A stretch of DNA of 64,000 nt. Source: Pseudacidovorax intermedius. Lineage in GTDB: Bacteria > Pseudomonadota > Gammaproteobacteria > Burkholderiales > Burkholderiaceae_C. Location of the stretch: NCBI RefSeq assembly GCF_003350475.1, contig NZ_QQAV01000005.1, positions 1-64,000 on the forward strand. Direction: 5' to 3'. Made by a program: the position numbers and the translations under genes. The first letter of the stretch is position 1. Every line of letters begins with the position of its first letter. The notes under the pieces were generated by a model. The model searched no databases. It worked only from the letters and a program-made list of their open reading frames with translations, and had not been told where the DNA came from. This document shows positions 30,648 through 60,426 of the stretch, piece by piece.

Positions 30648-30681
30648 GGGTTGTCTCCTTGCTTGTTCTCGGAATGGCGCG

Positions 30682-44562: not shown

Positions 44563-44598
44563 GATCGAGTGGCCGCGGAGCAGGCCAAGCCAGGGCAC

Positions 44599-44690
44599 CC
44601 CAGGAACTGGCTTTGCCAGGCCTGCGGGTGCGCCCCCCTCCAAGCCGAGGGCGCGAGAGAGGGGGGAGCCGCGAAGCGGCATGGGGGGTG
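44599..44690. repeat. Dispersed hairpin repeat between the two AcnX genes
   Basis: The gap contains CCCCCCTC (44633-44640) and GAGGGGGG (44659-44666) as an eight-base inverted repeat, followed by GCCGCGAAGCGGC and another G-run. The wording resembles a repeat that I know from several Comamonadaceae genomes. It is non-coding, and no stop-start coupling is possible across it. Confidence 0.6.
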
Positions 44691-44692
44691 TT

Positions 44693-45988: not shown

Positions 45989-46046
45989 GGGGCGGGTCCT
46001 TGTCTCGGGTCTTTTGTTGTTGTGCAGTCGTGGGGCGTGCAGGCCC

Positions 46047-46943
46047 TCAGGGCGGCGATGCAGCGTCCGCCTCCAGCGGCAGCCGCCCACCGATCTCGCG
46101 GGCGATCTGCCGGGCCAGCTCGCGCAGGCGCGGACCGACCTCTTCGCGCAGCCGCTCTTCGGTGAACACGAAGGCGGCGCCGCCGGCGTTGAGCGCCATC
46201 ACCTCGTCGCCCGGTCCGATGAGCGGCACCGACACCGAGTTGATCTCGCGGTGGAACTCGCCCAGCGACAGCGTCCAGCCGGTGCGCGAGGCCTGCGCCA
46301 GGGCCCGCTGCAGCGGCTGGGCGATGGCGTCCCACTCCGGGCCGCGCAGCAGCCGCATGGAGTCGATGAGCTGCTCGCGCGCGGCGGGCGTCAGTGCCGC
46401 CAGGTAGGCACGGCCCAGCGCCGAGTTGGGCAGCGGCGCGCGCGAGCCCACGTCCAGCCGCGGCGAGAGCATGGACGAGCGCGGCCGGCAGGCCTCGATC
46501 AGCACCATCTCCATGCCGTCGCGCACGGCCAGGTACACCGAGGCCCCGCCCTCCTCCGCCAGCGCCTGCATGTGCGGCCGGGCCACGGCGCGCACGTCCA
46601 GGCTGCCGAGGAAGACGCGCGCCAGCGACACCACGCCCGGGCCCAGCATGAAGCGGTCGGCCACGGCAGCCGGCTTGAGCATGCCGTTGGCCAGCAGCGT
46701 GGCCACGAGCCGGTTGACGGTTGGCCGGGGAATGCCGGTCATGCGCGCCATCTCGGCATGGCCCAGCACGGGCCGGTCTTCGCTGAAGCAGCGCAGCAGC
46801 GACAGGCCGCGCTCCAGCGCGCTGACGGTGTCGCCGCGTTCGGCGCGCAGGTCGGAGGAATCGGGCACGGCGGCCTTGTCGGAGGGCGTCATGGGCAGGA
46901 ATGCGGATGCGGCTGAGGAGGACCGGCCACTGTAGATCGTCAT
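46047..46943 (-). CDS. IclR family transcription regulator
   Basis: Regulator of 298 residues. The winged HTH follows SALERGLSLLRCFSE, with GHAEMARMTGIPRPTVNRLVATL, and an effector domain follows with SVYLAVRDGMEMVLIEACR and LGRAYLAALTPAAREQL. It lies between the FAD oxidoreductase and AcnX genes on the same strand, so it probably regulates this locus. The start is uncertain: ATG 46943 (19 bases after the oxidoreductase stop) or ATG 46892 (281 residues); neither has a clear ribosome site. Confidence 0.88.
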   Translation of the reverse strand: MTIYSGRSSSAASAFLPMTPSDKAAVPDSSDLRAERGDTVSALERGLSLLRCFSEDRPVLGHAEMARMTGIPRPTVNRLVATLLANGMLKPAAVADRFMLGPGVVSLARVFLGSLDVRAVARPHMQALAEEGGASVYLAVRDGMEMVLIEACRPRSSMLSPRLDVGSRAPLPNSALGRAYLAALTPAAREQLIDSMRLLRGPEWDAIAQPLQRALAQASRTGWTLSLGEFHREINSVSVPLIGPGDEVMALNAGGAAFVFTEERLREEVGPRLRELARQIAREIGGRLPLEADAASPP

Positions 46944-46962
46944 GCGCGCGCCACGCCGGTGT

Positions 46963-48417
46963 TCAGTCCGTGGTGGCGGTCTCGCCAGCCTTGGCCGCCG
47001 CACGGGCGGGCGCGCCAGGCCGCAGGTAGACGCCCTGCGCGATCAGGGCCGACTGCAGGGCGCCGATGTCCACGTCGCGCGGCGCGATGCCGCCGCGCGA
47101 GGCCAGCGCCGCCGCCACGCCCGCAGCCTGGCCGGTGATCCAGCACTGCGGGATCTCGCGCATGAAGCCGTGCGAGTTGCGGTCGCAGGAGATGTGGCGC
47201 CCGCAGGCCAGCAGCCCGTCCAGCGACTGGGGCACCAGCGCGCCATAGGGAATGGAGATGTTGGGGAACTTGGGCGACACCGCGGGCGAGACGCCGATCT
47301 CGTCCGCCAGCGGAACGCCGTCCGGCCACTGGCTGCGCAGCACGGCGCCCGTGCCCACCAGCCGGCGCGCATGGCGCACGCCGATCTGCGGCGCGCTCAG
47401 CATCAGGAAGGCGTTCTCGAAGCCGGGCGCATGGGCGCGGAAGAAGTCCAGGTGCGCGGCCATGGTGCGGTGCGAGCGCACCTCCACGGCGGTCAGGTCG
47501 TCCACGTCCAGCGCCGAGTAGCCGGTCTGCCGCGGACCCATGAAGAGCGCGATGTCGTCGCGCCAGGAGACGAAGGGCCGCTCGAACAGGCCGATGGCCT
47601 CGCGCCCCTGCGCCATGAACTGCGAGAAGGCCTCGGGCTGGCCGGCCTTGAAGTCGATCCAGCGCTTCATGTCCACGCCCCCGAAGAGCCAGGACGTGTT
47701 CATGCAGTGGTGCACGTCGGCCTCTTCGATGTCGTTGACGAAGGCGGCACCCGCCCGTGCGAAGAGGTCGCCGTCGCCAGTGGCGTCCACCACCACGTCG
47801 GCCATGATGGCCATGCGGCCTTCCTTGCTCTCGAACACCACGCCGCGCACCCGGCCGTCCTGCACGATGGGCACCGCTGCCCAGGAGTGGTAGATGAGCT
47901 TGACCTGGCGTTCGAGCACGATCTCCTGGCTCAGCAGCTTGAGCCGCTCCGGGTCCACCGTGGGCGACCAGGTGACGACACCGTGGTAGGCCGCGGTGCG
48001 CTGCGACCAGTGGGCCGCCTTGGCCGGGTCCTGCGAGCCCCAATCCTCGCGCGCCGGACCGGCCACGGCATCGGCCGGCAGGCGGTCGAACAGCTCCTCG
48101 GCAAAGCCGCGGATCACCGGCTGGCCTTCCCAGTCGGTCATGCGGTCGATCCAGATCACCAGCCCACCGGTCGACAGGCCGCCCAGGTGGTTGTAGCGCT
48201 CCAGCAGGGCCACGTCGGCACCGGCCCGTGCTGCTGCTGCGGCCGCCGCCGTGCCCGACGGGCCGCCGCCCACCACCAGCACGCCGCAGCGGTGGTAGAT
48301 GGGCACCCGGCGGCCGGGCTCGTCCCAGAAGCCATGGTCGGGCCGGACCACGCGGGCATCGCGGTCGAAGATGTCGGAGCTGAGGATGCGCTCGTCGGAG
48401 CGGACGATGGTTTTCAT
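46963..48417 (-). CDS. FAD-dependent oxidoreductase (FAD_oxidored type)
   Basis: Flavoprotein of 484 residues. The dinucleotide motif is VLVVGGGPSGTAAAAAAARA from about residue 46, then LLERYNHLGGLSTGG; VVVDATGDGDLFARAGA is the second FAD contact, and GLLACGRHISCDRNSHGFMR the C-terminal one. The family dehydrogenates or isomerises hydroxy and unsaturated acids. It is the first gene of the minus-strand AcnX operon; a dyad 30 bases upstream may be the IclR site. The electron acceptor and substrate are unknown. Confidence 0.85.
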   Translation of the reverse strand: MKTIVRSDERILSSDIFDRDARVVRPDHGFWDEPGRRVPIYHRCGVLVVGGGPSGTAAAAAAARAGADVALLERYNHLGGLSTGGLVIWIDRMTDWEGQPVIRGFAEELFDRLPADAVAGPAREDWGSQDPAKAAHWSQRTAAYHGVVTWSPTVDPERLKLLSQEIVLERQVKLIYHSWAAVPIVQDGRVRGVVFESKEGRMAIMADVVVDATGDGDLFARAGAAFVNDIEEADVHHCMNTSWLFGGVDMKRWIDFKAGQPEAFSQFMAQGREAIGLFERPFVSWRDDIALFMGPRQTGYSALDVDDLTAVEVRSHRTMAAHLDFFRAHAPGFENAFLMLSAPQIGVRHARRLVGTGAVLRSQWPDGVPLADEIGVSPAVSPKFPNISIPYGALVPQSLDGLLACGRHISCDRNSHGFMREIPQCWITGQAAGVAAALASRGGIAPRDVDIGALQSALIAQGVYLRPGAPARAAAKAGETATTD

Positions 48418-48447
48418 GGCGGCGTCGGTCAAAGTGGGTTCATTTTT

Positions 48448-48462
48448 TGGACATGAGGTCCA
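48448..48462. promoter_or_regulatory. Inverted repeat in the AcnX/Bug divergent promoter
   Basis: TGGAC-ATGAG-GTCCA, five-base arms, 31 bases before the FAD oxidoreductase start and about 100 before the divergent Bug gene. The location fits an operator for the IclR regulator of the locus. Confidence 0.5.
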
Positions 48463-48560
48463 TAAAGTCAATCAAATGACGCTGAATCGAGGGTTAACAC
48501 GGTCATTAAAAGCCGGTTATCGGAAAGATAGTCTGTGCAAAACGGAAATCCGGAGACTTC

Positions 48561-49592
48561 ATGCGACCTCGTCCCTCGCTTCCTCATGCCATGCGCCGCC
48601 GCGCGCTCGCGCGCCTGCTGGCGTTCGCGGCTGCCGTGCCGGCCCTGGCATGCCTGACGCCTTCCGCACTGGCGGCCGGCCCTGCCTTCCCGGTCGACGG
48701 CAAGCCAATCCGCATCGTGGTCGGCTTCACCGCGGGCGGCGGCACCGACGCGCAGGCGCGCATCGTGGCCAAGCACCTGGGCGAGGTGCTCGGCACGCCG
48801 GTGCTGGTGGACAACCGCCCCGGCGCCAGCACCATGCTGGCCGCCAGCGAGGTGGCGCGCGCCCTGCCCGATGGGCACACGCTGCTGTATGCGCCCTCTT
48901 CCACCATGGCGCAGAACCCCCACACCTTCGCCAAGGTGCCCTACGACCCGTTCAAGGACTTCACGCCCATCTCGCTGGGCGGTCGCGGTCCGCTGGTGCT
49001 GTCGATCAGCAGCGGCGTGCCGGCGGCCAACGTGGCCGAGCTGGTCGCCTATGTGAAGGCGCGGCCGGGCCAGACGAGCTACGCCTCCTTCGGCGCGGGT
49101 ACCTCCTCGCACATCTACGGCGAGGCCTTCGTGCGCAAGGCGGGCATCGACTCGGTGCATGTGCCCTACAAGGGCGGCTCCGACGCGGCCAAGGACCTGA
49201 TGGCCGGCCGCGTGCCCTTCATGTTCGACTCGGCCTCGTCGGCCGTCATCGCGGCCAGCAGCGGCAAGGTGCGCATCCTGGCCGTGGCGGCCGAGCAGCG
49301 CATCCCGGCCCTGCCGGATGTGCCCACGCTGTCGGAGCAGGGCTTTACCGGGCTGGACCTGCCGAGCTGGCTGGGCTTCTACGGCCCGGCGGGCATGGCG
49401 GCGCCCACCGTGCAGCGGCTCAATGCCGCGCTGGCCCAGGTGCTGGCGCTGCCGGAGGTGCGCAAGTTCTACCGCGACGGCGGGTACGAGGCGGGCGCCA
49501 ACAGCCCCGAGGCCTTTGCGCAGCTGACCCGTCGCACTTACGAGCAATGGGGCGCGATGGTGCGCCAGGTCGGCCTGCAGGCGGCCCAGTGA
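48561..49592 (+). CDS. Bug/TctC periplasmic solute receptor (5 of 7)
   Basis: Receptor of 343 residues with an N-terminal signal segment (RRRALARLLAFAAAVPALAC). Core motifs: KPIRIVVGFTAGGGTDAQAR, VLVDNRPGASTMLAASE, LPDGHTLLYAPSS and PDVPTLSEQGFTGLD. GGAG precedes the ATG. It is divergent from the AcnX operon and is followed 47 bases later by a close paralogue; the two probably arose by tandem duplication. Confidence 0.92.
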   Translation: MRPRPSLPHAMRRRALARLLAFAAAVPALACLTPSALAAGPAFPVDGKPIRIVVGFTAGGGTDAQARIVAKHLGEVLGTPVLVDNRPGASTMLAASEVARALPDGHTLLYAPSSTMAQNPHTFAKVPYDPFKDFTPISLGGRGPLVLSISSGVPAANVAELVAYVKARPGQTSYASFGAGTSSHIYGEAFVRKAGIDSVHVPYKGGSDAAKDLMAGRVPFMFDSASSAVIAASSGKVRILAVAAEQRIPALPDVPTLSEQGFTGLDLPSWLGFYGPAGMAAPTVQRLNAALAQVLALPEVRKFYRDGGYEAGANSPEAFAQLTRRTYEQWGAMVRQVGLQAAQ

Positions 49593-49639
49593 GCGCACGC
49601 ACGCCCCTGTACGCCCGACGCGATTTCCGAGGACCTTCC

Positions 49640-50653
49640 GTGAGCACGATCCCCACCCCTTCCTTCTCTCGCCGCCGCGCCCTGACAGGTCTGGCCACCG
49701 CGCTGGCGCTCTCGCCCTGGCCGGTGGTGCGGGCCGCGCCGGCGTCCTTTCCCCAGCCGGGACGCACCCTGCGCATCGTGCTGGGCCTGGCTGCCGGTGG
49801 CGCGTCGGACGCGCAGGCCCGCTTCGTCGCCAACCGGCTGCCCGATGTGCTGGGCATCCCGGTCATCGTCGAGAACCGGCCCGGCGCCAGCTTCATCCTC
49901 GCGACCGAGGAGGTGATCCGCGCCGCGCCCGACGGCTACACGCTGATGTACGCGCCCTCTTCGGTGGTGGCGCAGAACCCGCAGACGCTGGCGCAGGTGC
50001 GCTACGACCCCTTCAAGGACCTGACGCCCATCTCCCTGGGCGCGCGCGGCCCGCTGGTGCTGACGGCCCACAGCAGCCTGCCGGTGCACACTGTGCAGGA
50101 GCTGGTGGCCTATGTGCGGGCCCATCCGGGCACGGTGAGCTATGCCTCCTTCGGCGCCGGCACCTCGTCGCACATCTATGGCGAGGCCTTCTGCCGCCAG
50201 GCCGGGCTGGACGCCGTGCATGTGCCCTACAAGGGCGGTGCCGATGCGGCGCGCGACGTGCTCGCGGGCCGGGTGCAGTTCTATTTCGACGCAGCACCCA
50301 ACGCCATCCAGAACAGCGCCACCGGCAAGGTGCGCATGCTGGCGGTGGCTGCGCCCAAGCGCAGTCCGCTGCTGCCCGATGTGCCCACCATGGGCGAGCA
50401 GGGCATCACCGGCGTCGACATGCCGAGCTGGCTGGGTTTTTACGGCCCGGCCGGCATGCCGCCCGCGGTGGTCGACACCTTGAGCGCTGCGCTCGCCAAG
50501 GTGCTGTCGCAGCCGGAGACGCGCGCCTTCTTCCGCCAGGGCGCCTACGAGGCCGAGGCCTCCAGCCCGCGCGAACTGGCGGCGCTCACGCGCTCCACCT
50601 ACGACGCCTGGGGCGGGATCATTCGGCAGCTGGGGTTGGCGGTGCAGCGCTAA
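49640..50653 (+). CDS. Bug/TctC periplasmic solute receptor (6 of 7)
   Basis: Receptor of 337 residues starting at a GTG with GAGGA in front. Signal segment RRRALTGLATALALSPWPVVRA. It shares long identical stretches with the preceding gene (YASFGAGTSSHIYGEAF, VHVPYKGG, PSWLGFYGPAGM), but its ligand loops differ (FYFDAAPNAIQNSATGKV versus FMFDSASSAVIAASSGKV). Two receptors in series may widen the range of acids bound. It ends 18 bases from the convergent LacI gene. Confidence 0.91.
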   Translation: MSTIPTPSFSRRRALTGLATALALSPWPVVRAAPASFPQPGRTLRIVLGLAAGGASDAQARFVANRLPDVLGIPVIVENRPGASFILATEEVIRAAPDGYTLMYAPSSVVAQNPQTLAQVRYDPFKDLTPISLGARGPLVLTAHSSLPVHTVQELVAYVRAHPGTVSYASFGAGTSSHIYGEAFCRQAGLDAVHVPYKGGADAARDVLAGRVQFYFDAAPNAIQNSATGKVRMLAVAAPKRSPLLPDVPTMGEQGITGVDMPSWLGFYGPAGMPPAVVDTLSAALAKVLSQPETRAFFRQGAYEAEASSPRELAALTRSTYDAWGGIIRQLGLAVQR

Positions 50654-50671
50654 CTCGGCAGAAGAAGCCGC

Positions 50672-51703
50672 TCAGGCCGCCGCAGGCGCCGCCGTCGACG
50701 CCCGCACCACCAGCTCGGGCCGCAGCACCACCGTGGAGGCCAGCAGCGCCTGGCCCTCGATGGCCTGGAACAGCATCTCCGCCGCCTGCCAGCCCAGCTC
50801 GCGGTGCGGCAGGCGGATGGTGGTGAGCGGCGGATCGACCATGTCCACCAGCGGCATGTCGTTGTGGCCGGTGATGGAGATGTCCCGCGGAATGCGCAGG
50901 CCCGCCGCCCGCAGCACGTCGTAGGCGCCCAGCGCCACCAGGTCGTTGCAGCAGACCACGGCTTCGGGCCGTTTGCCGCTGCTTTCCAGCAGCACGCGCA
51001 TGGCTTGCTGGCCGGCCTCGCGGCTGTAGCTGTCGCATTCGACGATGCGCGGCGCGGGCAGGCGGTGGTCGCGCAGCGCCTGCTCCACGCCCTGGCGGCG
51101 GCCCACGCCGGTGGGCACGGTCTGCGGGCCGGCCAGGTGCGCGATGCGGCGATGGCCCAGGGCCACGAGGTGGTCGACGGCCAGCTTCATGGCCAGGCGG
51201 TCGTCGCTCACCGCGGCGGGCAGCCGTCCGCTCTCGTCGGCGCGGTTGACCATCACCGCATGCATGCCGCTGTCGCGCACGAAGTCGATCAGCGGGTCTT
51301 CGCGCAGCGCAATGGCCATCACCAGGCCGTCGATCTGCTGGGCCTTCATGCGCGCCAGGATGGGCTGCGCGAGCTGCGGGTCGCCCACGTTGGCCACGAA
51401 GACGAAGTAGCCGCGCGCTGCCGCCGCGGCCTCGATGCCCTGCAGGATGGGCGGGAACACCGGGTTGGTGATGTCGGGCAGCAGCACGCCGATGGTGTGG
51501 GTGCGCCCGGTGCGCAGCGCCGAGGCCGCGCGGTTGGGCTGGTAGCCCAGGCGGCGCGCCGTCTCTTCCACCAGCGCCAGCACCTCCTTGCTGATGCGCT
51601 GGCGCCGCGCCGGATCGAGGGCGCGCGAGACGGTCGACACATGCACGCCGCTGGCGGTGGCGACATCGCGGATGGTGACTTTGGGCGGCTTGGCGGCTTT
51701 CAT
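50672..51703 (-). CDS. LacI family repressor of the ring-cleavage operon
   Basis: Repressor of 343 residues: HTH TIRDVATASGVHVSTVSRAL (10-29), hinge NRAASALRTGRTHTIGVLLP, sensor with AVVCCNDLVALGAYDVL and SITGHNDMPLVD. It is divergent from the dioxygenase operon. A perfect GCAAACGTTTGC site lies four bases before its own start and an 18-base version lies before the dioxygenase gene, so it should repress both. LacI control of an aromatic-type operon is uncommon; IclR, LysR or MarR types are usual. Confidence 0.92.
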   Translation of the reverse strand: MKAAKPPKVTIRDVATASGVHVSTVSRALDPARRQRISKEVLALVEETARRLGYQPNRAASALRTGRTHTIGVLLPDITNPVFPPILQGIEAAAAARGYFVFVANVGDPQLAQPILARMKAQQIDGLVMAIALREDPLIDFVRDSGMHAVMVNRADESGRLPAAVSDDRLAMKLAVDHLVALGHRRIAHLAGPQTVPTGVGRRQGVEQALRDHRLPAPRIVECDSYSREAGQQAMRVLLESSGKRPEAVVCCNDLVALGAYDVLRAAGLRIPRDISITGHNDMPLVDMVDPPLTTIRLPHRELGWQAAEMLFQAIEGQALLASTVVLRPELVVRASTAAPAAA

Positions 51704-51707
51704 TCGT

Positions 51708-51719
51708 GCAAACGTTTGC
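51708..51719. promoter_or_regulatory. LacI operator next to the repressor start
   Basis: GCAAACGTTTGC, perfect 12-base palindrome, ending four bases before the LacI start codon. Same core as the site at 51796. Confidence 0.75.
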
Positions 51720-51795
51720 CGTACGGCGGTCGTGCTGTCAAGAGGATCAATGCTGCGATTGTGCCCTTTGCTTTGCGCCAGGTCAGAACCAATAA

Positions 51796-51813
51796 TGTGC
51801 AAACGTTTGCACA
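51796..51813. promoter_or_regulatory. LacI operator of the dioxygenase operon
   Basis: TGTGCAAACGTTTGCACA, perfect 18-base palindrome, ending 14 bases before the dioxygenase ATG. Contains the GCAAACGTTTGC core that also precedes the repressor gene. Confidence 0.82.
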
Positions 51814-51827
51814 CGGAGCCCCCGGTC

Positions 51828-52694
51828 ATGAACATCGTGACGACCCCCGACTCGGTCCTGCCCATCGCCCTGGACGCGATGGCCCGTACCCCCAACCCCC
51901 GGCTGCGCGAGGTGATCGCCTCGCTCACCCGCCACCTGCATGCCTTCGTGCAGGAGGTGAAGCTCAGCGAAGAGGAGTTCGAGCAGGCGCTGGACTTCAT
52001 CGTCGCCATCGGCCAGGCCACCGGCGAGAAGAAGAACGAGGTGGTGCTGGCCGCCGACATCCTGGGCATCTCGACCCTGGTGGCGCTGCAGAACAACCAG
52101 GATCCGCAGGGCGAGTCGCCCTCTGCCCTGCTCGGCCCCTTCTGGCGCGCCAATGCGCCGGACTGCGCCTGCGGCGATTCCATCGCGCGCTCGGGCACGC
52201 CGGGCGTGCCGCTGTTCGTCTCGGGCGTGGTGCGTGACGGCCAGGGCCGACCGCTGGCCGATGCCATGGTGGACGTGTGGCAGGCCTCGCCCGTCGGCCT
52301 GTACGAGAACCAGGACCCGACGCAGGAGAACATGAACCTGCGCGGGCGCTTCCGCACCGATGCCGAGGGCCGCTACCACTTCCGCAGCGTGCGGCCCGCC
52401 GGCTACCCCGTGCCGGTGGACGGGCCCTGCGGCGTGCTGCTGAAGGCCCAGCGCCGCCACCCCAACCGGCCGGCGCACCTGCACTTCATGGTGAGCAAGC
52501 CCGGCTTCAAGGTGCTGGTCAGCCAGGTCTATGCCGACGACGACGAGAACCTCGAAAGCGACCCGACCTTCGGCGTCACGCGCCGGCTGATCGGCCGCTA
52601 TGCGCTGCAGCCCGATGGGCAGAGCGCCACGCTGGCCTACGACTTCCAGCTGGAGCCGGGCGAGACCAAGTTCCCGCGTCCGCCGATTCCCTGA
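51828..52694 (+). CDS. Intradiol ring-cleavage dioxygenase (hydroxyquinol 1,2-dioxygenase-like)
   Basis: Non-haem iron(III) dioxygenase of 288 residues. It opens a catechol-type ring between the hydroxyls; with 1,2,4-trihydroxybenzene the product is maleylacetate. The N-terminal helical domain (NPRLREVIASLTRHLHAFVQ to LLGPFW) is of the hydroxyquinol/catechol class. Iron ligands appear as Tyr159 (VGLYENQ), Tyr193 (RPAGYPVP), His217 and His219 (PAHLHFMV), with hydroxyquinol-enzyme spacing. It is the first gene of a LacI-controlled operon. No maleylacetate reductase of the usual iron-type is present; see the MDR and SDR genes. Confidence 0.9.
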   Translation: MNIVTTPDSVLPIALDAMARTPNPRLREVIASLTRHLHAFVQEVKLSEEEFEQALDFIVAIGQATGEKKNEVVLAADILGISTLVALQNNQDPQGESPSALLGPFWRANAPDCACGDSIARSGTPGVPLFVSGVVRDGQGRPLADAMVDVWQASPVGLYENQDPTQENMNLRGRFRTDAEGRYHFRSVRPAGYPVPVDGPCGVLLKAQRRHPNRPAHLHFMVSKPGFKVLVSQVYADDDENLESDPTFGVTRRLIGRYALQPDGQSATLAYDFQLEPGETKFPRPPIP

Positions 52695-52737
52695 CCCCTC
52701 TTCCTCTTTCAACCCTCTTCTTCATGACTGCAAGACC

Positions 52738-53502
52738 ATGAGCTTCACCCCTGTTTCACGCCTGGACGGCAAGGTGGCCGTCATCACCGGCGGGCTGGGC
52801 GCCATCGGCTATGCCAGCGCGCAGCGCCTGGCCGCCCTGGGCGCCACCTGCGTGCTGCTGCACCGCAAGGCCGAGGACGCCGACGCCCGCGCCGCGGCCC
52901 TGCCCTCGGCCGAGGGCCAGCGCCACAGCGCGCTGCGCGCCGACATCGTCGACAGCGCCAGCCTGCAGGCCGCCGCCGCGCAGGTGAAGGCCGATCACGG
53001 CCGCTGCGACATCCTGGTCAACAGCGCCGGCCATACACGGCCGGTGCCGGCGGCCGACCTCGACGGCCTGACCGACGAACTGATCGACGAGCTGCTGCAG
53101 GCCAACTTCCGCGGCGTGTTCGCCACCATCCGCGCCTTCGTGCCGCTGCTCAAGGCCAGCGGCGACGGGCTGATCGTGAACGTCTCCTCCATCGCCGGCT
53201 TCACCGGCGTGGGCAGCAACTTGGCCTATGTGGCCGCCAAGGCCGGCCTGGACGTGGTGGGCGACGCGCTGGCCAAGGCGCTGGCGCCGGCCGTGCGCGT
53301 GGTGTCGGTCTCGCCCGGCGCGGTGGAGTCGGCCTTCGTGCCCGGCCGCGGCGAGGACTTCAAGGCCAAGATGGCCACCACCACGCCGCTGGGCCGCATC
53401 GGCCTGCCCGACGACGTGGCCGCCACCGTCGAGGCGCTGGCCACCACCCTGCGCTTCGTGACCGGCACGCGCATCGTGGTGGACGGAGGACGGCACCTGT
53501 GA
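52738..53502 (+). CDS. Short-chain dehydrogenase in the dioxygenase operon
   Basis: SDR of 254 residues. Cofactor motif TGGLGAIGYA, VNSAGHT, SSIAG and the catalytic YVAAK; the end is VTGTRIVVDGGRHL. In the operon it might oxidise a side chain or ring alcohol before cleavage, or reduce a later keto acid. Its GTG-coupled successor (4-base overlap) shows that it is translated with the BKACE gene. A start at ATG 52738 gives the family length; the preceding 43 bases have no other feature. Confidence 0.88.
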   Translation: MSFTPVSRLDGKVAVITGGLGAIGYASAQRLAALGATCVLLHRKAEDADARAAALPSAEGQRHSALRADIVDSASLQAAAAQVKADHGRCDILVNSAGHTRPVPAADLDGLTDELIDELLQANFRGVFATIRAFVPLLKASGDGLIVNVSSIAGFTGVGSNLAYVAAKAGLDVVGDALAKALAPAVRVVSVSPGAVESAFVPGRGEDFKAKMATTTPLGRIGLPDDVAATVEALATTLRFVTGTRIVVDGGRHL

Positions 53503-54389
53503 ACAAGACACTCATTACCTGTGCCGTGACGGGCAACCTGGTGAAGCCCGAGCAGACCCCGCATCTGCCCATCACCCCCACGCAGATCGCCGACGAATGC
53601 CTGGCCGCGGCCGAGGCGGGCGCGGGCCAGGTGCACATCCATGTGCGCGACCCCGGCACCGGCAAGCCGTCGATGGAGGTGGCGCTCTACCGCGAGGTGG
53701 TCGAGCGCATCCGCCGCCACGACCGCGAACTCGTCATCAACCTCACCACGGGCCCCGGCGGGCGCTTCGTGCCGAGCGAGGACGACCCCAAGGTCTACGC
53801 CCCCGGTACCTCGCTGCTGCCGCCCGAGCGACGCGTCGAGCACATCGCGCTGATCAAGCCCGACGTCTGCTCGCTGGACCTCAACACCATGAACAGCGGC
53901 CCCGACGTGGTGATCAACACGCCGAAGAACGTGCGCCGCATGGCCAAGGTGATCCGCGAGGCGGGCGTCAAGCCCGAGCTGGAGATCTTCGACTCCGGCG
54001 ACATCAACCTGGCGCTGGACCTGATCGCCGACGGCACGCTCGACGGGCCCGGCATGTGGACCTTCGTGCTGGGCGTGAAGTACGGCTTCGCGCCCACGCC
54101 CGAGACGCTGCTCTACGCCCGCAACATGCTGCCGCGCGGCGCCTTCTGGAGCGCCTTCGGCATCGGCCGCATGGAGTTCCCCATCGTGGCCCAGGCCTGG
54201 CTCATGGGTGGCCATGTGCGCGTGGGCATGGAAGACAACATCTACCTGTCGCACGGTGTGCTGGCAGAAAGCAATGCCCAGCTGGTGGCCAAGGCACGCG
54301 ACATCATCCGCAGTCTGGGCGGCCAGGTGGCCAGCGCCGCCGAGGCGCGCCAGATGCTCGGCCTGCCGGCCGCAGGAGCCGCACGATGA
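53499..54389 (+). CDS. Beta-keto acid cleavage enzyme (BKACE, DUF849)
   Basis: Zinc enzyme of 296 residues that condenses a beta-keto acid with acetyl-CoA to give acetoacetate and a new acyl-CoA. Signs: HIHVRD with His46/His48 as zinc ligands, LNTMNSGPD, FDSGDI, and MEDN with Glu245 near the third ligand. The GTG start overlaps the SDR stop (GTGA). With a ring-cleavage dioxygenase in the same operon the natural substrate would be 3-oxoadipate, giving succinyl-CoA plus acetoacetate; this family does include beta-ketoadipate-active members, but other beta-keto acids remain possible. Confidence 0.88.
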   Translation: MNKTLITCAVTGNLVKPEQTPHLPITPTQIADECLAAAEAGAGQVHIHVRDPGTGKPSMEVALYREVVERIRRHDRELVINLTTGPGGRFVPSEDDPKVYAPGTSLLPPERRVEHIALIKPDVCSLDLNTMNSGPDVVINTPKNVRRMAKVIREAGVKPELEIFDSGDINLALDLIADGTLDGPGMWTFVLGVKYGFAPTPETLLYARNMLPRGAFWSAFGIGRMEFPIVAQAWLMGGHVRVGMEDNIYLSHGVLAESNAQLVAKARDIIRSLGGQVASAAEARQMLGLPAAGAAR

Positions 54390-55393
54390 ACGCCGTTTCG
54401 AACCCCAAAGTCAACGGCCCCGCGCGCGCCCTGCGCGTGGAGCAGAAGGCCGCCGACCTCGCGTCGCTGCAGCTCGCCATCGTCGACCAGCCGCCGCCCA
54501 CGCCTGCCGCCGGCATGGCGGTGGTGCAGGTCGGTGCCGCCGCCGTCAACCCCAGCGACGTGAAGGCCACGCTGGGCCTGATGCCCAAGGCCGTGTGGCC
54601 GCGCACGCCGGGCCGCGACTTCGCCGGCACCGTGATCGCCGGACCCAGCGCCTGGATCGGCCGCGAGGTCTACGGCTCCGGCGGCGACGTGGGCATCACC
54701 CGAGACGGCTCGCATGCGCGCTACCTGCTGCTGCCCGAGGCGGCGCTGCGCGAGCGTCCGCGCAACATCTCGATGGACGAGGCCGGCGCCGTGGGCGTGC
54801 CCTTCGTGACGGCCTACGAGGGCTTCCGCCGCAGCGGCATGCCGCAGGCGGGCCAGGTGGTGCTGGTGCTGGGCGCCAACGGCAAGGTGGGCCAGGCGGC
54901 GGCGCAGCTTGCGGCGCAGGCCGGGGCGAAGGTGATCGCCGTGCAGCGCCGGCCCGGGCCTTTCGAGGGCTTTGCCTGTGCGCCGGTCGACGTCATCGAC
55001 GCCAGCCAGGAAGACGTGGCCGCCCGCGTGCTCGAACTCACCGGCGGGCGCGGGGCCGACGTGGTCTACAACACCGTGGGCAGCGCCTACTTCGAGGCCG
55101 CCAACAAGTCCATGGCCAAGGGAGCGACACAGATCTTCATCGCCACCCACGACCGGGCGGTGCCCTTCGACATCTTTGCCTTCTACCGGGGCATGCACAC
55201 CTATGTGGGCATCGACTCGCTGGCCATGGACTGCGTGGCCTCCACCGCGCAGCTGGACGCGATGCGCGAGGGCTTCGAGCGCGGCACGCTCAAGCCCTTC
55301 CCGGTGGCGCGCAGCTTCGGGCTGGACGAGGCGCTGCAGGCCTACCAGCAGGTGCTCTCGGGCAGCACCGACCGCGTGGTGCTGCGGCCCTGA
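54386..55393 (+). CDS. MDR family oxidoreductase without zinc ligands (quinone-reductase-like)
   Basis: NADPH-dependent reductase of 335 residues. Medium-chain fold seen as NPSDVKATLG and GRDFAGTVIAG, cofactor motif LVLGANGKVGQAAAQLAA, and YNTVGSAYF. No Cys or His zinc ligands are present, so it is of the quinone oxidoreductase/enoyl reductase type. It overlaps the BKACE stop by four bases. It could reduce the double bond of maleylacetate to 3-oxoadipate in place of the missing iron-type reductase, but this is inferred from position alone. Confidence 0.85.
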   Translation: MNAVSNPKVNGPARALRVEQKAADLASLQLAIVDQPPPTPAAGMAVVQVGAAAVNPSDVKATLGLMPKAVWPRTPGRDFAGTVIAGPSAWIGREVYGSGGDVGITRDGSHARYLLLPEAALRERPRNISMDEAGAVGVPFVTAYEGFRRSGMPQAGQVVLVLGANGKVGQAAAQLAAQAGAKVIAVQRRPGPFEGFACAPVDVIDASQEDVAARVLELTGGRGADVVYNTVGSAYFEAANKSMAKGATQIFIATHDRAVPFDIFAFYRGMHTYVGIDSLAMDCVASTAQLDAMREGFERGTLKPFPVARSFGLDEALQAYQQVLSGSTDRVVLRP

Positions 55394-55417
55394 GCGCGAG
55401 CAACGGAGACGACCGCC

Positions 55418-55780
55418 ATGCACGTCACCCGCTTCGACCAGGCGCCCGCCTATGAGGCGCCCCGCCATTTCGACATGCGCTGCCTGCGCCTGCAGGGCAA
55501 GGAGGCCGGGCCTTCCGAGCAGATGTGGATGGGCATGAGCCAGATCCTGCCCGGTGGCCACACCGGCCTGGACGGCTCGCCCATGGAAAAGCTCTACCTC
55601 GTGCTCGAAGGCCGGCTCACGGTCATCGGCGAACTGGATGGGCAGACCGAGGAGCAGGAGCTCGGCCCCTACGACTCCTGCCGCTTCGCGCCGGGCGAGA
55701 AGCGGCAGCTGGTCAACCGCAGCAACCGGCCGGCGCTGGTGGCGCTGGTGATGCCGCACGAGCCGCCAGTGCCGAAGTGA
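55418..55780 (+). CDS. Small cupin-domain protein
   Basis: Single-domain cupin of 120 residues: LPGGHTGLDGSPMEKLYLVLEGRLTV carries the first cupin motif (only the His and Glu parts are retained), and PYDSCRFAPGEKRQLVNRSNR the second. The metal site seems partial, so it may bind a small molecule or stabilise an enzyme. It ends the tight part of the operon; a 138-base gap with a repeat follows. Confidence 0.8.
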   Translation: MHVTRFDQAPAYEAPRHFDMRCLRLQGKEAGPSEQMWMGMSQILPGGHTGLDGSPMEKLYLVLEGRLTVIGELDGQTEEQELGPYDSCRFAPGEKRQLVNRSNRPALVALVMPHEPPVPK

Positions 55781-55788
55781 CCCATCGC

Positions 55789-55846
55789 CGTTCGCGCTGA
55801 GCCTGTCGAAGCGCGGTACCGGGCTTCGATAGGCTCGGCCCGAACG
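55789..55846. repeat. Long imperfect palindrome (dispersed Burkholderiales-type repeat)
   Basis: Arms of 24 bases (55789-55812 and 55823-55846) match at 21 positions; the core words are CTGAGCCTGTCGAAG and CTTCGATAGGCTCGG. A further half-copy TTCAGCCCGAACGG lies at 55861-55874. The TTCGACAGGCTCAGCCCGAAC wording is a common intergenic repeat in Comamonadaceae-like genomes. Confidence 0.7.
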
Positions 55847-55918
55847 GTTCGAGGCCCAAGTTCAGCCCGAACGGCGGACGGCCCCATTCACCCACAGAAG
55901 ACAAGACGGAGACAAGAC

Positions 55919-56914
55919 ATGACCTTCCCCTCGACTCGCGGCCTCGGCCGCCGCCTCTTAATCGCTGCCGCCATCACCGCCACTGCGCTCGCCAGCGCCC
56001 AGGCCCAGGCCCAGGGCGACTGGCCGCGCGGCCAGACCATCCGCCTCATCGTGCCCTTCACCGCCGGCAGCGGCACCGACATCGTGGCTCGACTGGTGGC
56101 CGAGCGCCTGGGGCCCGCGCTGGGCACCTCGGTGGTGGTCGAGAACAAGCCCGGCGCCGGCGGCACGCTGGGTGCCGTGCAGGTGGCGCGTGCCCCGGCC
56201 GACGGCTACACGCTGCTGGTGCATTCGGCCGGGCACCTGGTCAACCCGTCGATCTATCCCAACCTGAGCTACGACACGCTCAAGGACTTCGCCGGCATCA
56301 CGCCCATGGCCAGCCTGCCCAATGTGCTGGTCACCTCGCCCGGCAAGTTCGCCGACGTGAAGGACCTGGTCGCGCAGGTGAAGGCCAAGCCGGGGGGCTT
56401 CAACTACGCCTCGGCCGGCAACGGCTCGGCCACGCACATGAATGCCGAGGTGTTCCGCCTGGCGGCGGGCATCCAGGCGCAGCATGTGCCCTTCCGCGGC
56501 ACGCCCGAGGCCATGACCGAGGTGATGGGCGGGCGCGTGGACTGGTTCTTCGCGCCCATGGTGTCGGCGCTGCCGCTGATCAAGGACGGCAAGCTCAAGG
56601 CACTGGCCGTGGGCACGGGCAAGCGCTCGTCGGTGCAGCCCGACCTGCCCACCACGGTGGAGGCCGGCGTGCCCGGCTCGGAGTACCTGTTCTGGGTCGG
56701 CCTGTTCGCGCCGGCCAAGACGCCTCGGCCGGTGATCGACCGCCTGCAGACCGAGGTCGCGAAGATCATGGCCGCGCCCGACCTCAAGGACCGCCTCGAC
56801 AAGCTGGGCGCCGAGCCCTTCACCATGCCCTCGGCCCAGTTCGACGCCTTCCTGGCGGACGAGACGGCCAAGAGCGCGCGCATTGTCAAGGCCTCCGGCA
56901 TCAAGGTCGACTGA
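55919..56914 (+). CDS. Bug/TctC periplasmic solute receptor (7 of 7)
   Basis: Receptor of 331 residues; signal peptide ending AQAQA near residue 31. Core: TIRLIVPFTAGSGTDIVARL, VVVENKPGAGGTLG, PADGYTLLVHSAG, PTTVEAGVPGSEY. It follows the cupin gene after the repeat and is in turn 18 bases from the amidohydrolase gene. Its place suggests that it captures the acid precursor used by the operon. Confidence 0.92.
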   Translation: MTFPSTRGLGRRLLIAAAITATALASAQAQAQGDWPRGQTIRLIVPFTAGSGTDIVARLVAERLGPALGTSVVVENKPGAGGTLGAVQVARAPADGYTLLVHSAGHLVNPSIYPNLSYDTLKDFAGITPMASLPNVLVTSPGKFADVKDLVAQVKAKPGGFNYASAGNGSATHMNAEVFRLAAGIQAQHVPFRGTPEAMTEVMGGRVDWFFAPMVSALPLIKDGKLKALAVGTGKRSSVQPDLPTTVEAGVPGSEYLFWVGLFAPAKTPRPVIDRLQTEVAKIMAAPDLKDRLDKLGAEPFTMPSAQFDAFLADETAKSARIVKASGIKVD

Positions 56915-56932
56915 ACCCGGAGCCGCCTCGCC

Positions 56933-58987
56933 ATGAAGCGCTTCAGCCTGGGCGGCCCTGCTGCCGCCGCTACGACGAATCCGGACACGCCGCGCTACCG
57001 CCACTGGTGCGACCCCGCCTGTGTCCACGAGGCCGAACCCGAGCCCCCGCGCCGACAGTTCCTGCGCAGCTCGCTGGGCCTGGCCACGGCCGGCGGCATC
57101 GCGGGTCTGGGCCTGGGCGGTGCGCTGGCCGGCTGTGCCAGCACCGCGCCCGCTGGCCCGGCCGACCTGGTGCTGCTCAACGCCCGCATCGCCACCGTGG
57201 ACGCCAAGCGCCCCCGCGCCCAGGCGCTGGCCATCGTGGGCGAGCAGTTCGCCGCCGTGGGCAGCGATGCCGACATGCAGCGCTGGATCGGCCCGCGCAC
57301 CCGCGTCATCGACGCGCAGGGCCGCACGGTGGTGCCGGGGCTCATCGACTCGCATGCGCACTTCATCCGCGGCGGGCTCACCTACACGCAGGAGTTGCGC
57401 TGGGACGGCGTGCCCTCGCTGGCCGATGCGCTGGTCATGCTGCGCGACCAGGCGCGGCGCACGCAGCCGCCGCACTGGGTGCAGGTGGTGGGTGGCTTCT
57501 CGCCCTACCAGTTCCGCGAGAAGCGGCTGCCCACGCTGCAGGAGATCAACGCCGCGACCGGCGACGTGCCCTGCTTCGTCATGAACCTGTACGACCGCGC
57601 CTTTCTGAACCGCGCGGCCCTGCGGGTGCTGGGCTTCGACCGCAACACGCCCAACCCCATCGGCAGCGTGCTGGAGAAGGACGCCGCCGGCAACCCGACC
57701 GGCCTGGTGGTCAACACCACCAGCCTGGGCGGGCTGGTGGCGCTGTTCGCGCGTGTGCCCAAGCTGTCCGACGGCGACCAGGCGCTGTCGACCCAGCTCT
57801 ACATGCGCGAGATGAACCGCCTGGGCCTGACCAGCGTGGTCGACGCTGGCGGCGGCGGCCAGAACTACCCCGAGCACTACAGCGGCATCGCCCAACTCGC
57901 GGCCGAGCGCAGGATGACGCTGCGCATCTCGTACAACCTGTTCGCGCAGCGCCCGGGCCAGGAGCTGGCCGATTACCAGGCCTGGTCGCAGCGCGTCGCG
58001 CCCGGCCAGGGCGACGACTGGCTGCGCATGGTGGGCGCCGGTGAATACATCCTGTGGGCCGCCACCGACCCGGCCAACTTCGGCAAGAGCGTGACGCCCG
58101 CGCCGGCCATCATGGAAAGCAAGCTCACCGAGGTGGCGACCTACCTGGTGGGCAAGGGCTGGCCCATCCGCATGCATGCCAGTTACGACAGCACCGCCAC
58201 GCGCATCCTCGACGTGCTGGAGAAGGTCAACCGCGAGGTGCCGATGAAGAACGTGCGCTGGGCGCTGGACCACTGCGAGACGCTGTCGCCACGCTCCATG
58301 GAGCGCGTGGCCGCCATGGGCGGACGCATCGCCATCCAGAACCGCATGTCGCTGGACGGCGAAGTCTTCGCGCAGACCTGGGGCCGCGAGGCCGCGGCGG
58401 ACGCGCCCGCCATCGGCCGCATGCGGGCGATGGGCCTGCCCGTGGCCTGCGGCACCGATTCGAGCCGCGCCACCAGCTACAACCCGTGGGTCTCGCTGCA
58501 CTGGCTGGTGACCGGCAAGACGATGGGCGACACACGCCTGAATGCCGACCGCAACCTGGTCAGCCGCGACGAGGCGCTGCGCATGTGGACGCTGGAGGGC
58601 GCGGCCCTCACCGGCGACGAGCCCCGCAAGGGCAGCATCCAGCCCGGCAAGCTGGCCGACTTCGCCTTGCTGTCGGACGACTACTTTGCCGTGCCCGAGG
58701 ACGACATCCGCGACATCACCGCCGTGCTGACGGTGGTGGGCGGCACGGTGGTGCATGGCAGCGGCAGCTTCGCCGCGCAGGCACCGGCCGTGGTCAAGCC
58801 CATGCCCGACTGGCTGCCGGTGAACGTGTACGGCGGCTACCAGCAGCGGCGCAAGAGCGGCATGGCGCAGGCGCCCGGTGGGGCGGCGATGCATGGCGCC
58901 GGCTGCTGCGCCGGGCCCGCGTCGGCGCCGATCATCGTGGGCGACCGGGGGAACTGGCGCATGAGCTGCGGCTGCGCGGTGATCTAG
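56933..58987 (+). CDS. Tat-exported amidohydrolase (YtcJ type)
   Basis: Metal-dependent hydrolase of 684 residues. After a 40-residue head the signal RRQFLRSSLGLATAGG precedes a lipobox-like LAGC, so it may be a Tat-secreted lipoprotein. The barrel has DSHAHF, MHASYD, DHCE and CGTDSS with the usual His/Asp metal ligands. Extra cysteine-rich segments at both ends (HWCDPAC; GAGCCAG and MSCGCAV) are not usual for the family and may bind metal. The substrate, an amide, lactone or formamide, is unknown; acting in the periplasm it could release the acid that the adjacent Bug takes up. Confidence 0.82.
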   Translation: MKRFSLGGPAAAATTNPDTPRYRHWCDPACVHEAEPEPPRRQFLRSSLGLATAGGIAGLGLGGALAGCASTAPAGPADLVLLNARIATVDAKRPRAQALAIVGEQFAAVGSDADMQRWIGPRTRVIDAQGRTVVPGLIDSHAHFIRGGLTYTQELRWDGVPSLADALVMLRDQARRTQPPHWVQVVGGFSPYQFREKRLPTLQEINAATGDVPCFVMNLYDRAFLNRAALRVLGFDRNTPNPIGSVLEKDAAGNPTGLVVNTTSLGGLVALFARVPKLSDGDQALSTQLYMREMNRLGLTSVVDAGGGGQNYPEHYSGIAQLAAERRMTLRISYNLFAQRPGQELADYQAWSQRVAPGQGDDWLRMVGAGEYILWAATDPANFGKSVTPAPAIMESKLTEVATYLVGKGWPIRMHASYDSTATRILDVLEKVNREVPMKNVRWALDHCETLSPRSMERVAAMGGRIAIQNRMSLDGEVFAQTWGREAAADAPAIGRMRAMGLPVACGTDSSRATSYNPWVSLHWLVTGKTMGDTRLNADRNLVSRDEALRMWTLEGAALTGDEPRKGSIQPGKLADFALLSDDYFAVPEDDIRDITAVLTVVGGTVVHGSGSFAAQAPAVVKPMPDWLPVNVYGGYQQRRKSGMAQAPGGAAMHGAGCCAGPASAPIIVGDRGNWRMSCGCAVI

Positions 58988-59001
58988 CCGATAGTGGCGG
59001 G

Positions 59002-59982
59002 ATGAACATCCTCATCACCGGCGGCGCCGGCTTCCTCGGCACCCTGCTGGCGCGCCGCCTGCTGCAGCGCGGCACCCTGTGCGGCCAGCCCATCGACACG
59101 CTCACCCTGACCGACCTGCATCCGGTCGCCGATCCGGGCCTGCTGGCGGATCCGCGGGTCAGGCGCGATGCAGGCGATCTGCTGCAGCGGCTGGACAGCC
59201 TGATGGCGGGCGATCATGACGCCGTCTTCCACCTCGCCTCGGCCGTCTCCGGCGAATGCGAGGCCGACTTCGCGCTGGGCCTGCGCAGCAACCTGGAAGC
59301 CACGCGGCGCCTGCTGGAGGCCCTGCGCGCTCAGCAGGCGCGCACCGGCCAGGCGCCGCTGTTCTTCTTTGCCAGCTCGGTCGCCGTCTATGGCGGCGAC
59401 GAGGCCGTGCCGCTGCCGCCCGTGGTGCGCGACGACACCCTGCCCACGCCCCAGTCCAGCTACGGCATCCAGAAATTCATCTGCGAACAGCTGGTGGCCG
59501 ACTACACCCGCAAGGGCTACATCGATGGCCGCGCCGCGCGACTGATGACCGTGTCGGTGCGGCCGGGCCGGCCCAATGGGGCGGCCTCGGGCTTCCTCTC
59601 GGGCATCGTGCGCGAGCCGCTGGCCGGCATCGATGCCATCTGCCCGGTGGACCCCTCCACCGCGGTCGCCCTGTCCTCGCCCGACACCACCATCGCCGGC
59701 ATCCTGCGCGTGGCCGAGGCCAGCCGCGCCGAGTTCGGCGGGCGCACCGCGTTGAACCTGCCCGCCCTCAGCGTGACCGTGGCGGAGATGCTGCAGGCGC
59801 TGGAACGCAGCGCCGGCCAAGCGGTGGCCGCCCGCGTCACCGTCCAGCCCGACGCGGCCATCGCGCGCATCGTGGGTGGCTGGCCCTCGCGGTTCGAGAG
59901 CGAGCGTGCCCGGCGGCTGGGGCTGCCGGCGGATGCGAGCTTCGACGCCGTCATTACGCAGTTCCGGGCGCTGGCGCGCTGA
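59002..59982 (+). CDS. denD: D-erythronate dehydrogenase-like (DenD) NAD-dependent epimerase/dehydratase family protein
   Basis: Extended SDR of 326 residues: Rossmann GGAGFLGTLLARRL, FHLASAVSGECEADF, SSVAVYGG, catalytic YGIQK, and VRPGRPNGAASGFLSG, the pattern of DenD enzymes that oxidise D-erythronate at C2. The usual partners OtnK/OtnC are not in the window, so true erythronate use is unproven. It follows the amidohydrolase gene by 14 bases and leads into the PPC gene. Confidence 0.75.
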   Translation: MNILITGGAGFLGTLLARRLLQRGTLCGQPIDTLTLTDLHPVADPGLLADPRVRRDAGDLLQRLDSLMAGDHDAVFHLASAVSGECEADFALGLRSNLEATRRLLEALRAQQARTGQAPLFFFASSVAVYGGDEAVPLPPVVRDDTLPTPQSSYGIQKFICEQLVADYTRKGYIDGRAARLMTVSVRPGRPNGAASGFLSGIVREPLAGIDAICPVDPSTAVALSSPDTTIAGILRVAEASRAEFGGRTALNLPALSVTVAEMLQALERSAGQAVAARVTVQPDAAIARIVGGWPSRFESERARRLGLPADASFDAVITQFRALAR

Positions 59983-60015
59983 GCGCCGCCTGCCCATTCC
60001 GGGCACGATGGCGCC

Positions 60016-60426
60016 ATGAGCTTCACTCCCCTGCGCCTGCCGCCCGGCGCCGACCTGCGGCGCACGCTGGAACAGCATGCTTTCGACCATGCCGATGGCC
60101 CGGCCCTCTTCGTCGTCGCCGGCATCGGCAGCCTGGACGGCGCCGTGCTGCGCCTGGCCGCCGCCAATCAGGAAACCCGCTGGACCGGGCCCTTCGAAAT
60201 CCTCAGCCTGTCGGGCTCGCTGTCACCCCAGGGCGCCCATCTGCACATGAGCGTGGCCGACGCGCAGGGGCGCGTGTGGGGCGGGCATGTGGGGTATGGG
60301 AATGCGGTGAGGACGACGGTGGAGTTGGTGGTGGCGGAGATGGCGGGGTGGCGGTTGGGGCGGGAGGTGGATGCGGGGACCGGGTATTTGGAGTTGACGA
60401 TCAGAGCGGAGAACGTTGTTCAATAG
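60016..60426 (+). CDS. PPC/DUF296 domain protein
   Basis: Protein of 136 residues matching the PPC (DUF296) fold: RLPPGADLRRTLEQHA, FVVAGIGSLDGAVLRL, PFEILSLSGSLS and HLHMSVADAQGRVWGGHVGYG, with the conserved His-containing strand. In bacteria the role is unclear (a trimer that may bind metal or DNA). It ends the plus-strand run, 33 bases after the DenD-like gene; the base composition falls just after it. Confidence 0.8.
   Translation: MSFTPLRLPPGADLRRTLEQHAFDHADGPALFVVAGIGSLDGAVLRLAAANQETRWTGPFEILSLSGSLSPQGAHLHMSVADAQGRVWGGHVGYGNAVRTTVELVVAEMAGWRLGREVDAGTGYLELTIRAENVVQ

Follow-up and report, generated by a model that had tools for sequence, protein, structure and literature searches.

The 64,000-nucleotide stretch of Pseudacidovorax intermedius DNA analyzed here (the window; contig NZ_QQAV01000005.1, part of contig C5 of a 5.98-Mb genome) carries a five-gene operon that we judge, with a little more confidence than doubt, to encode the later steps of a pathway for aromatic catabolism. 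The genes encode a hydroxyquinol-type intradiol dioxygenase, a short-chain dehydrogenase (SDR), a BKACE, an MDR reductase, and a small cupin (Table 1). The dioxygenase would open a hydroxyquinol-type ring (1,2,4-trihydroxylated, perhaps substituted) between vicinal hydroxyls, and the MDR protein would reduce the maleylacetate-type double bond, which is normally the task of an iron-type maleylacetate reductase. The BKACE would then convert a dicarboxylic beta-keto acid (3-oxoadipate or a close analogue) and acetyl-CoA into acetoacetate and succinyl-CoA (or its analogue), with Arg89 holding the far carboxylate. Acetoacetate would re-enter metabolism via a general succinyl-CoA:acetoacetate transferase and a thiolase, with the net balance of pcaIJF, and the SDR and cupin would probably handle a ring or chain feature missing from plain hydroxyquinol. 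We read these reactions, and the repression proposed below, from the genes, their order and conservation, the displacement pattern of reductases, active-site residues, and operator-like palindromes.

Conservation of the five-gene cassette

The original prediction, made from this DNA alone, had named the five genes, their order, and two overlaps, all of which were borne out by the sequence and by Pfam: SDR and BKACE genes meet at GTGA, BKACE and MDR genes meet at ATGA, and the remaining gaps are 43 and 24 bases. An NCBIfam profile search showed no model over its cut-off for any of the five proteins (for the SDR, among the best 25 of 217 models).

The same order recurs elsewhere as a unit. From a scan of named genomes by BKACE alone, which gave 145 relatives, the best 80 were retained, and all five genes (at least 44% identity) were present at 73 of these 80 loci; given that selection, their co-occurrence is not a matter of chance. 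Four of the other seven loci end at contig ends (L087, L089, L104, and L109), and three truly differ, L049 lacking the SDR and cupin and L063 and L064 lacking the cupin. A gene-called list comprised 95 loci (75 from the scan and 20 added because the cassette was present, some genomes being listed twice), and the order dioxygenase-SDR-BKACE-MDR-cupin was called on a single strand at 85 of them, with median gaps of 28.5, -4, 3, and 18. Gene calls outside the window came from our own codon-score script, which missed some genes at some loci; at L044, L092, and L100, genes absent from the calls were detected by tblastn. L116 and L117 have a different layout. A total of 93 distinct BKACE DNA sequences were found among 116 loci with dioxygenase, SDR, BKACE, and MDR genes, and the BKACE of the window matches its counterparts in four Pseudacidovorax records (L034 to L037) at 98 to 100% identity.

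Within the family, a BKACE at least 62% identical to that of the window was found in 17 of 399 genomes (its own counted), and all five genes were seen in each of the 17 within ~1.5 kb per side, some ending at the stretch end. The dioxygenase was seen at none of 13 fetched family loci where BKACE identity was at most 53% (the 17 and the 13 together being L004 to L033; four further matches had no locus). A wider phylum sample yielded seven genomes with a BKACE of 56 to 69% identity; in the 19 kb fetched from each, the cassette was present in three (G680, G519, and G698) and absent from four (G772, G726, G656, and G468). The cassette occurs in Beta- and Alphaproteobacteria; it is frequent in the Variovorax, Pseudacidovorax, and Limnohabitans records obtained and lies on annotated plasmids of Bosea (order unchanged), Skermanella (cupin displaced), and Rhizobium (two extra genes between SDR and BKACE). 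On the Rhizobium plasmid (L119, 3977-17150), it is extended by genes for an aldehyde dehydrogenase, an amidohydrolase, a gamma carbonic anhydrase, an alpha/beta hydrolase, phosphoenolpyruvate carboxykinase, and a flavin adenine dinucleotide (FAD) monooxygenase.

The neighbors of the cassette (three kinds of amidohydrolase, molybdenum hydroxylase parts, RidA, TctC, and porins) indicate no single ring substrate. It could be argued that the five genes themselves are neighbors through shared regulation only and form no common route, as amidohydrolase, TctC, and transport neighbors vary among loci. Given how consistently the five stay together in the scan, with overlapping or close spacing and in both proteobacterial classes, we regard this as very improbable.

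Reductases in cassette and curated BKACE clusters

The MDR protein carries MDR domains only, the Fe-ADH domains of iron-type maleylacetate reductases being absent by Pfam, and its PDB matches are general quinone reductases. Its earlier description as zinc free is reasonable, for it has only two cysteines (198 and 283). Since the 116-locus count had selected on MDR presence, 119 loci were chosen by the cassette dioxygenase (at least 44%) and BKACE (at least 55%) alone. The MDR gene was found at 117 of these and an iron-type reductase gene at none; 94 of the loci span at least 8 kb, and 92 of those have the MDR gene. The two loci without it are L089, which ends at a contig end, and L117.

Clusters built on the curated 3-oxoadipate BKACE class (NF053568) provide the comparison. 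Matches over the cut-off of this class occur in 63 of 249 genomes of the order of G680 and in 11 of 200 genomes of the window's family, with none in the window's genome. We examined neighborhoods of +-1.5 kb for 30 of the 66 over-cut-off matches in that order and also read 12 family stretches. Directly upstream of the curated BKACE gene, pcaH and pcaG were found at 8 of the 30 loci, and a hydroxyquinol-type dioxygenase gene (46 to 50% identity to that of L214) was found at 4. Over ~18 to 19 kb, these four loci have an iron-type maleylacetate reductase gene on the same strand (truncated by a contig end in L256) and no MDR ortholog, and L214, from the window's family, shows this combination as well: a hydroxyquinol-type dioxygenase, the curated BKACE, and an iron-type reductase, with no MDR ortholog. 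Several of the 12 family stretches have dehydroquinase, shikimate dehydrogenase, or protocatechuate dioxygenase genes beside the curated BKACE gene. In two family loci (L207 and L212), the dioxygenase is less similar (34 to 36%) and lies ~5 to 8 kb from the curated BKACE gene, with no iron-type reductase; they were taken as other branches and not counted as hydroxyquinol-type clusters.

The coupling of a hydroxyquinol-type dioxygenase to a 3-oxoadipate BKACE, central to the original prediction, therefore has counterparts at five loci. Because the iron-type enzyme accompanies the curated BKACE in these hydroxyquinol-type clusters and the MDR protein is found instead at nearly all cassette loci, the MDR protein probably fills the reductase slot, as that prediction had proposed. 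Its assignment as the double-bond reductase is the best supported of the new inferences made here.

In all of the 20 cassette genomes compared, the MDR gene was found exactly once (E value, 1e-50), within the cassette. An iron-type reductase (at least 49%) was present in 11 of the 20: in 9 of 9 genomes with a second dioxygenase of at least 40% identity and in 2 of 11 without one (G000 and G246). The association has a one-sided Fisher P value of ~3e-4, with the 40% line chosen post hoc; at a 35% line, the counts are 10 of 11 and 1 of 9, and the inclusion of close relatives among the 20 means that all such counts overstate independence. On an Agrobacterium plasmid (L114, 587-10867), a cassette-type BKACE gene (66%) lies near dioxygenase and iron-type reductase genes with no MDR ortholog, in the company of genes for a tautomerase, a sugar isomerase-like protein, and SDRs; this is possibly a mixed form of the two architectures.

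The replacement of pcaIJF by a BKACE, which the original prediction had offered as its own joining of known families, had already been proposed in print. In the portions of PMC8963497 and PMC12379598 consulted, a BKACE (DUF849) is proposed to replace PcaIJ/PcaF after intradiol cleavage in Methylobacterium, and in that of PMC6449761, a COG3246 protein is suggested as the beta-ketoadipate cleavage enzyme of a cat operon. The Methylobacterium pca clusters belong to the protocatechuate branch, with the DUF849 gene between pcaG and pcaB, and those same portions name no SDR, MDR, or cupin. A search of the open-licence literature gave no paper joining hydroxyquinol with BKACE terms on such a route. 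BKACE-terminated ortho cleavage is thus already known in kind, and that literature yielded no description of a hydroxyquinol-type branch that includes an MDR, an SDR, and a cupin. Intradiol cleavage and BKACE have been assembled more than once, and the form in the window is a variant.

Active site and relatives of the BKACE

The BKACE has the zinc ligands His46, His48, and Glu245 and further carries Leu14, Arg89, Phe164, and Arg224. Across 29 aligned sequences, His46, His48, Glu245, Asp246, and Arg224 are invariant, and they align with 2y7d and 9zsc in the residue comparison below. Its AlphaFold2 (AF2) model (mean pLDDT, 91.7) matched known BKACEs best in a structure search and superimposed on 3no5, a structure of the NF053568 class, with a Z score of 39.8 and a root mean square deviation of 1.5 over 270 residues.

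Residues were compared across the window protein, 24 cassette members, 7 close relatives without the cassette, 14 less similar members, 11 curated 3-oxoadipate BKACEs (locus L210 excluded), 2 paralogues from the same genome, 1 Agrobacterium sequence, and 4 PDB sequences. Leu or Ile at position 14 together with Arg89 was found in 24 of 24 cassette members, 11 of 11 curated enzymes, 5 of 7 close relatives, and 0 of 14 less similar members, and the pair is absent from Kce and 3c6c. The site of Glu14, which we take to face the far end of the substrate, is occupied by Leu in the window protein, which falls outside the lysine-fermentation class Kce (NF052387; 258 bits against a cut-off of 382). On a simple reading, such a pocket would suit a beta-keto acid that is negatively charged at its far end. 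An Arg after strand 3 is common to the cassette members, BsfD (see below), and the curated class, and at the Tyr145 site, Phe is found in the window protein, every cassette member compared (24), every curated enzyme compared (11), and 3c6c. The window protein thus bears the signature of Leu14, Arg after strand 3, and Phe, a signature drawn up in this analysis and not by the NF053568 curators. The BKACE active-site groups G1 to G7 are those of Bastard et al. (2014), with group labels as given in the portion of PMC4922564 consulted.

Compared with the NF053568 class of pca, quinate, and hydroxyquinol clusters, the window BKACE is alike in fold, zinc ligands, and these three signature residues, and that class also often adjoins intradiol dioxygenases. 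It is unlike that class in being only ~31 to 36% identical and below its cut-off, and the cassette pairs it with an MDR and not an iron-type reductase and has an SDR and a cupin in addition.

The best PDB match (350 bits) is BsfD (9zsc), an enzyme of flavophos biosynthesis and the closest solved sequence, which likewise has an extended, Arg-bearing loop (Arg91) after strand 3 and Phe (Phe166) at the Tyr site and which falls inside the cassette-type clade in our tree, with low support (0.36). The consulted portion of PMC12871164 describes BsfD, from phosphonate biosynthesis, as transferring acetyl without cleavage and highlights Arg91 and Phe166, the latter replacing a Tyr said to be present in all BKACEs. 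Both of these residues, proposed as distinguishing BsfD, also occur in the catabolic-looking cassette BKACEs and, as judged by alignment, in the curated 3-oxoadipate class. Reading the Tyr-to-Phe change as a mark of lost cleavage was rejected, because the curated 3-oxoadipate BKACEs compared carry Phe as well. In the corresponding Burkholderia stagnalis plasmid cluster (L121), genes for phosphoenolpyruvate mutase and lumazine synthase take the place of the cassette partners; neither gene is among those scanned at 42374-60426 of the window (44083-44598 lying outside the scan).

By analogy with BsfD, the BKACE might join acetyl-CoA to a beta-keto acid, with decarboxylation to a beta-diketone that the cupin would cleave. 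The PDB match, the two shared residues, and the position in the tree speak for this scheme, but Phe is no mark of acetyl transfer, the setting looks catabolic, and no metal-binding histidine set is conserved across 24 aligned cupins. Dke1 requires three His, and the cupin as a Dke1-like diketone dioxygenase was rejected on that ground. We consider the scheme unlikely.

One of the BKACE paralogues in the genome (L216, contig C1) has alanine in place of the first zinc histidine in the alignment and may have different metal binding or another activity.

Ring substrate and the roles of the SDR and cupin

The dioxygenase belongs to the intradiol family, has the iron ligands of a hydroxyquinol 1,2-dioxygenase, and matches PnpC (3n9t) best in the PDB (217 bits). 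By motif, Tyr159, Tyr193, His217, and His219 form the Tyr/Tyr/His/His pattern that we take to be its four iron ligands. Compared with eight hydroxyquinol-type sequences (three PDB chains and five loci), the cassette dioxygenases show near-fixed differences at positions 87, 100, 101, 195, and 233, some of which line the pocket in the hydroxyquinol dioxygenase structure. The cassette clade has Ala100, Leu101, Val195, and Gln233, whereas the eight sequences have mostly Thr, Val, Ile, and His. The earlier label of hydroxyquinol-type stands as to family and iron ligands and is less certain as to the pocket.

When searched against the PDB, the SDR and cupin matched either general relatives or nothing informative. 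The original prediction assigned these two proteins no work, although both are conserved. This bears on the narrower form of the proposed route, in which plain hydroxyquinol would pass through maleylacetate to 3-oxoadipate, the BKACE would stand in for pcaIJF, and the SDR and cupin would be accessory. All evidence for the broader route applies likewise, with which its chances overlap, and the window's genome has no second dioxygenase of the cassette family at an E value of 1e-30, so that the cassette enzyme could serve. However, the SDR and cupin would be kept without a role, the dioxygenase residues differ, and a second dioxygenase of at least 40% identity occurs in 9 of 20 cassette genomes, in two of which (G132 and G223) it is clustered with iron-type reductase and pcaI-family genes. 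Plain hydroxyquinol is accordingly possible as the substrate but, to our minds, improbable; for the same three reasons we lean, with modest confidence and from comparative data, to a substituted hydroxyquinol.

The SDR may instead act just before the BKACE, oxidizing a beta-hydroxy acid to the beta-keto acid, in which case a hydroxy acid would lie between the cleavage product and the BKACE, with the MDR protein acting earlier. In L118 and L168, where no dioxygenase is seen, SDR orthologs (50%) lie near the BKACE gene, an arrangement that links the SDR with the BKACE step. There is also genetic precedent for an SDR-BKACE pair in deoxyribonate catabolism, in the portion of PMC6365646 consulted; that pathway starts from a sugar acid, involves no ring cleavage, and is likened to the cassette by function alone and not by sequence. 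Against such an order, hydroxyquinol cleavage itself yields a keto acid, and the SDR is absent from L049. Although compatible with the proposed route, this order of steps seems doubtful to us.

Evidence against the route and canonical genes in the genome

Several observations weigh against the proposed route of dioxygenase, MDR reduction, and BKACE cleavage. The BKACE scores 172 bits on the 3-oxoadipate equivalog NF053568, below the cut-off of 350. Arg89 alone is less telling than the pair, being present also in 4 of the 14 less similar members, and the alignment near it has a two-residue gap relative to 3no5. The nearest solved relative is a biosynthetic acetyl-transferring enzyme. Members of the same BKACE clade occur without a dioxygenase in the fetched stretches L164, L165, L168, L118, and L170, so the substrate need not derive from a ring. 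Caballeronia L117 retains dioxygenase-SDR-BKACE without the MDR gene. An iron-type reductase gene is present in the window's own genome (contig C1, with no dioxygenase gene within the 19 kb around it), and in G680, another lies with its own dioxygenase gene ~8 kb from the cassette, just beyond stretch L166. Clusters that combine the iron-type enzyme with a curated BKACE showed neither an SDR nor a cupin like those of the cassette, which keeps both.

Assignment of the BKACE to 3-oxoadipate is supported by Leu14, Arg89, and Phe164 and weakened by the family cut-off. The route as a whole, in its original wording, retains those residues, the dioxygenase-BKACE adjacency elsewhere, and the MDR slot, and is weakened by the cut-off, the SDR and cupin, the dioxygenase pocket, and the pca genes of the genome.

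As to the last point, the absence of pcaIJF and iron-type reductase genes, noted originally for the operon, holds there and not for the genome: contig C17 carries pcaF (718 bits; cut-off, 597) adjoining a pcaI-family gene. The argument for a bypass from missing canonical genes was accordingly rejected, and with these genes and the C1 reductase elsewhere in the genome, a bypass of 3-oxoadipate CoA-transferase and thiolase is not forced. Among the 20 cassette genomes, pcaF-family matches occur in all (17 over cut-off) and a pcaI/scoA-family match over cut-off in 19. With the activation of acetoacetate by succinyl-CoA and its cleavage included, the BKACE route has the same stoichiometry as pcaIJF; "bypass" thus means different enzymes and not a different yield.

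More tentatively, the cassette may encode a lower pathway, not described before, for a substituted trihydroxybenzene. In that case, its MDR protein would be the first maleylacetate-type reductase known from the MDR superfamily, its BKACE would represent a second lineage, recruited separately, that acts on dicarboxylic beta-keto acids and from which BsfD would be derived, and its SDR and cupin steps would lack counterparts in known ortho-cleavage routes. If correct, the proposed route is one more combination of intradiol cleavage and a BKACE, points to a likely maleylacetate reductase not of the iron type, and provides a function open to testing for a gene set that is common in records of the three genera named above and present on some alphaproteobacterial plasmids.

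Candidate regulation and gene neighborhood

A LacI-family gene diverges from the operon, and both copies of the predicted operator GCAAACGTTTGC are situated between it and the dioxygenase gene (Table 1). A LacI gene of the same kind was found at 73 of 94 loci scanned. A CG-centred palindrome 5' of the dioxygenase gene occurs at 70 of the 73 loci with this LacI gene, at 4 of the 21 without it, and in 569 of 2,000 random pieces. The LacI protein would repress the operon. In G680 (contig 78; L166/L222), the cassette and its LacI gene lie ~8 to 15 kb from a second dioxygenase gene, an iron-type reductase gene, and a second LacI-like gene, so that two related ring-cleavage sets adjoin.

TABLE 1 Genes and predicted operators of the cassette region in the window
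Feature	Positions	Strand	Evidence or remarks
LacI-family repressor, divergent from operon	50672-51703	-	Pfam LacI and Peripla_BP_3
Predicted LacI-type operator GCAAACGTTTGC, copy 1	51708-51719		Palindrome
Predicted LacI-type operator GCAAACGTTTGC, copy 2, directly 5' of dioxygenase gene	51799-51810		Palindrome
Intradiol ring-cleavage dioxygenase, hydroxyquinol-type	51828-52694	+	Pfam Dioxygenase_N/_C over cut-offs
SDR	52738-53502	+	Pfam adh_short_C2; Ser151, Tyr164, Lys168
BKACE (PF05853), GTG start	53499-54389	+	Pfam, 332 bits (gathering cut-off, 24.8)
Zinc-free MDR/quinone-oxidoreductase-like reductase, proposed C=C reductase in maleylacetate reductase slot	54386-55393	+	Pfam ADH_N/ADH_zinc_N
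Small cupin without conserved metal-binding histidine set	55418-55780	+	Pfam Cupin_2
TctC-type solute-binding protein, frequent neighbor	55919-56914	+	Pfam TctC
Amidohydro_3 protein, neighbor outside core; such a gene in 33 cassette loci	56933-58987	+	Pfam

Directly preceding the LacI gene is a tandem pair of genes for TctC-type solute-binding proteins (48591-50653). Downstream of the Amidohydro_3 gene, epimerase-like and PCC-domain genes follow with short gaps (59002-60426); each of the two belongs to a cluster of four sequences, the window's own counted. A further catabolic group at 42374-48417 encodes a dihydroxy-acid dehydratase (IlvD/EDD), an aconitase X, an IclR regulator, and an FAD oxidoreductase, and genes for a biotin carboxylase, a carboxyl transferase, and a CaiB-type CoA-transferase lie near each other at 28249-33530.

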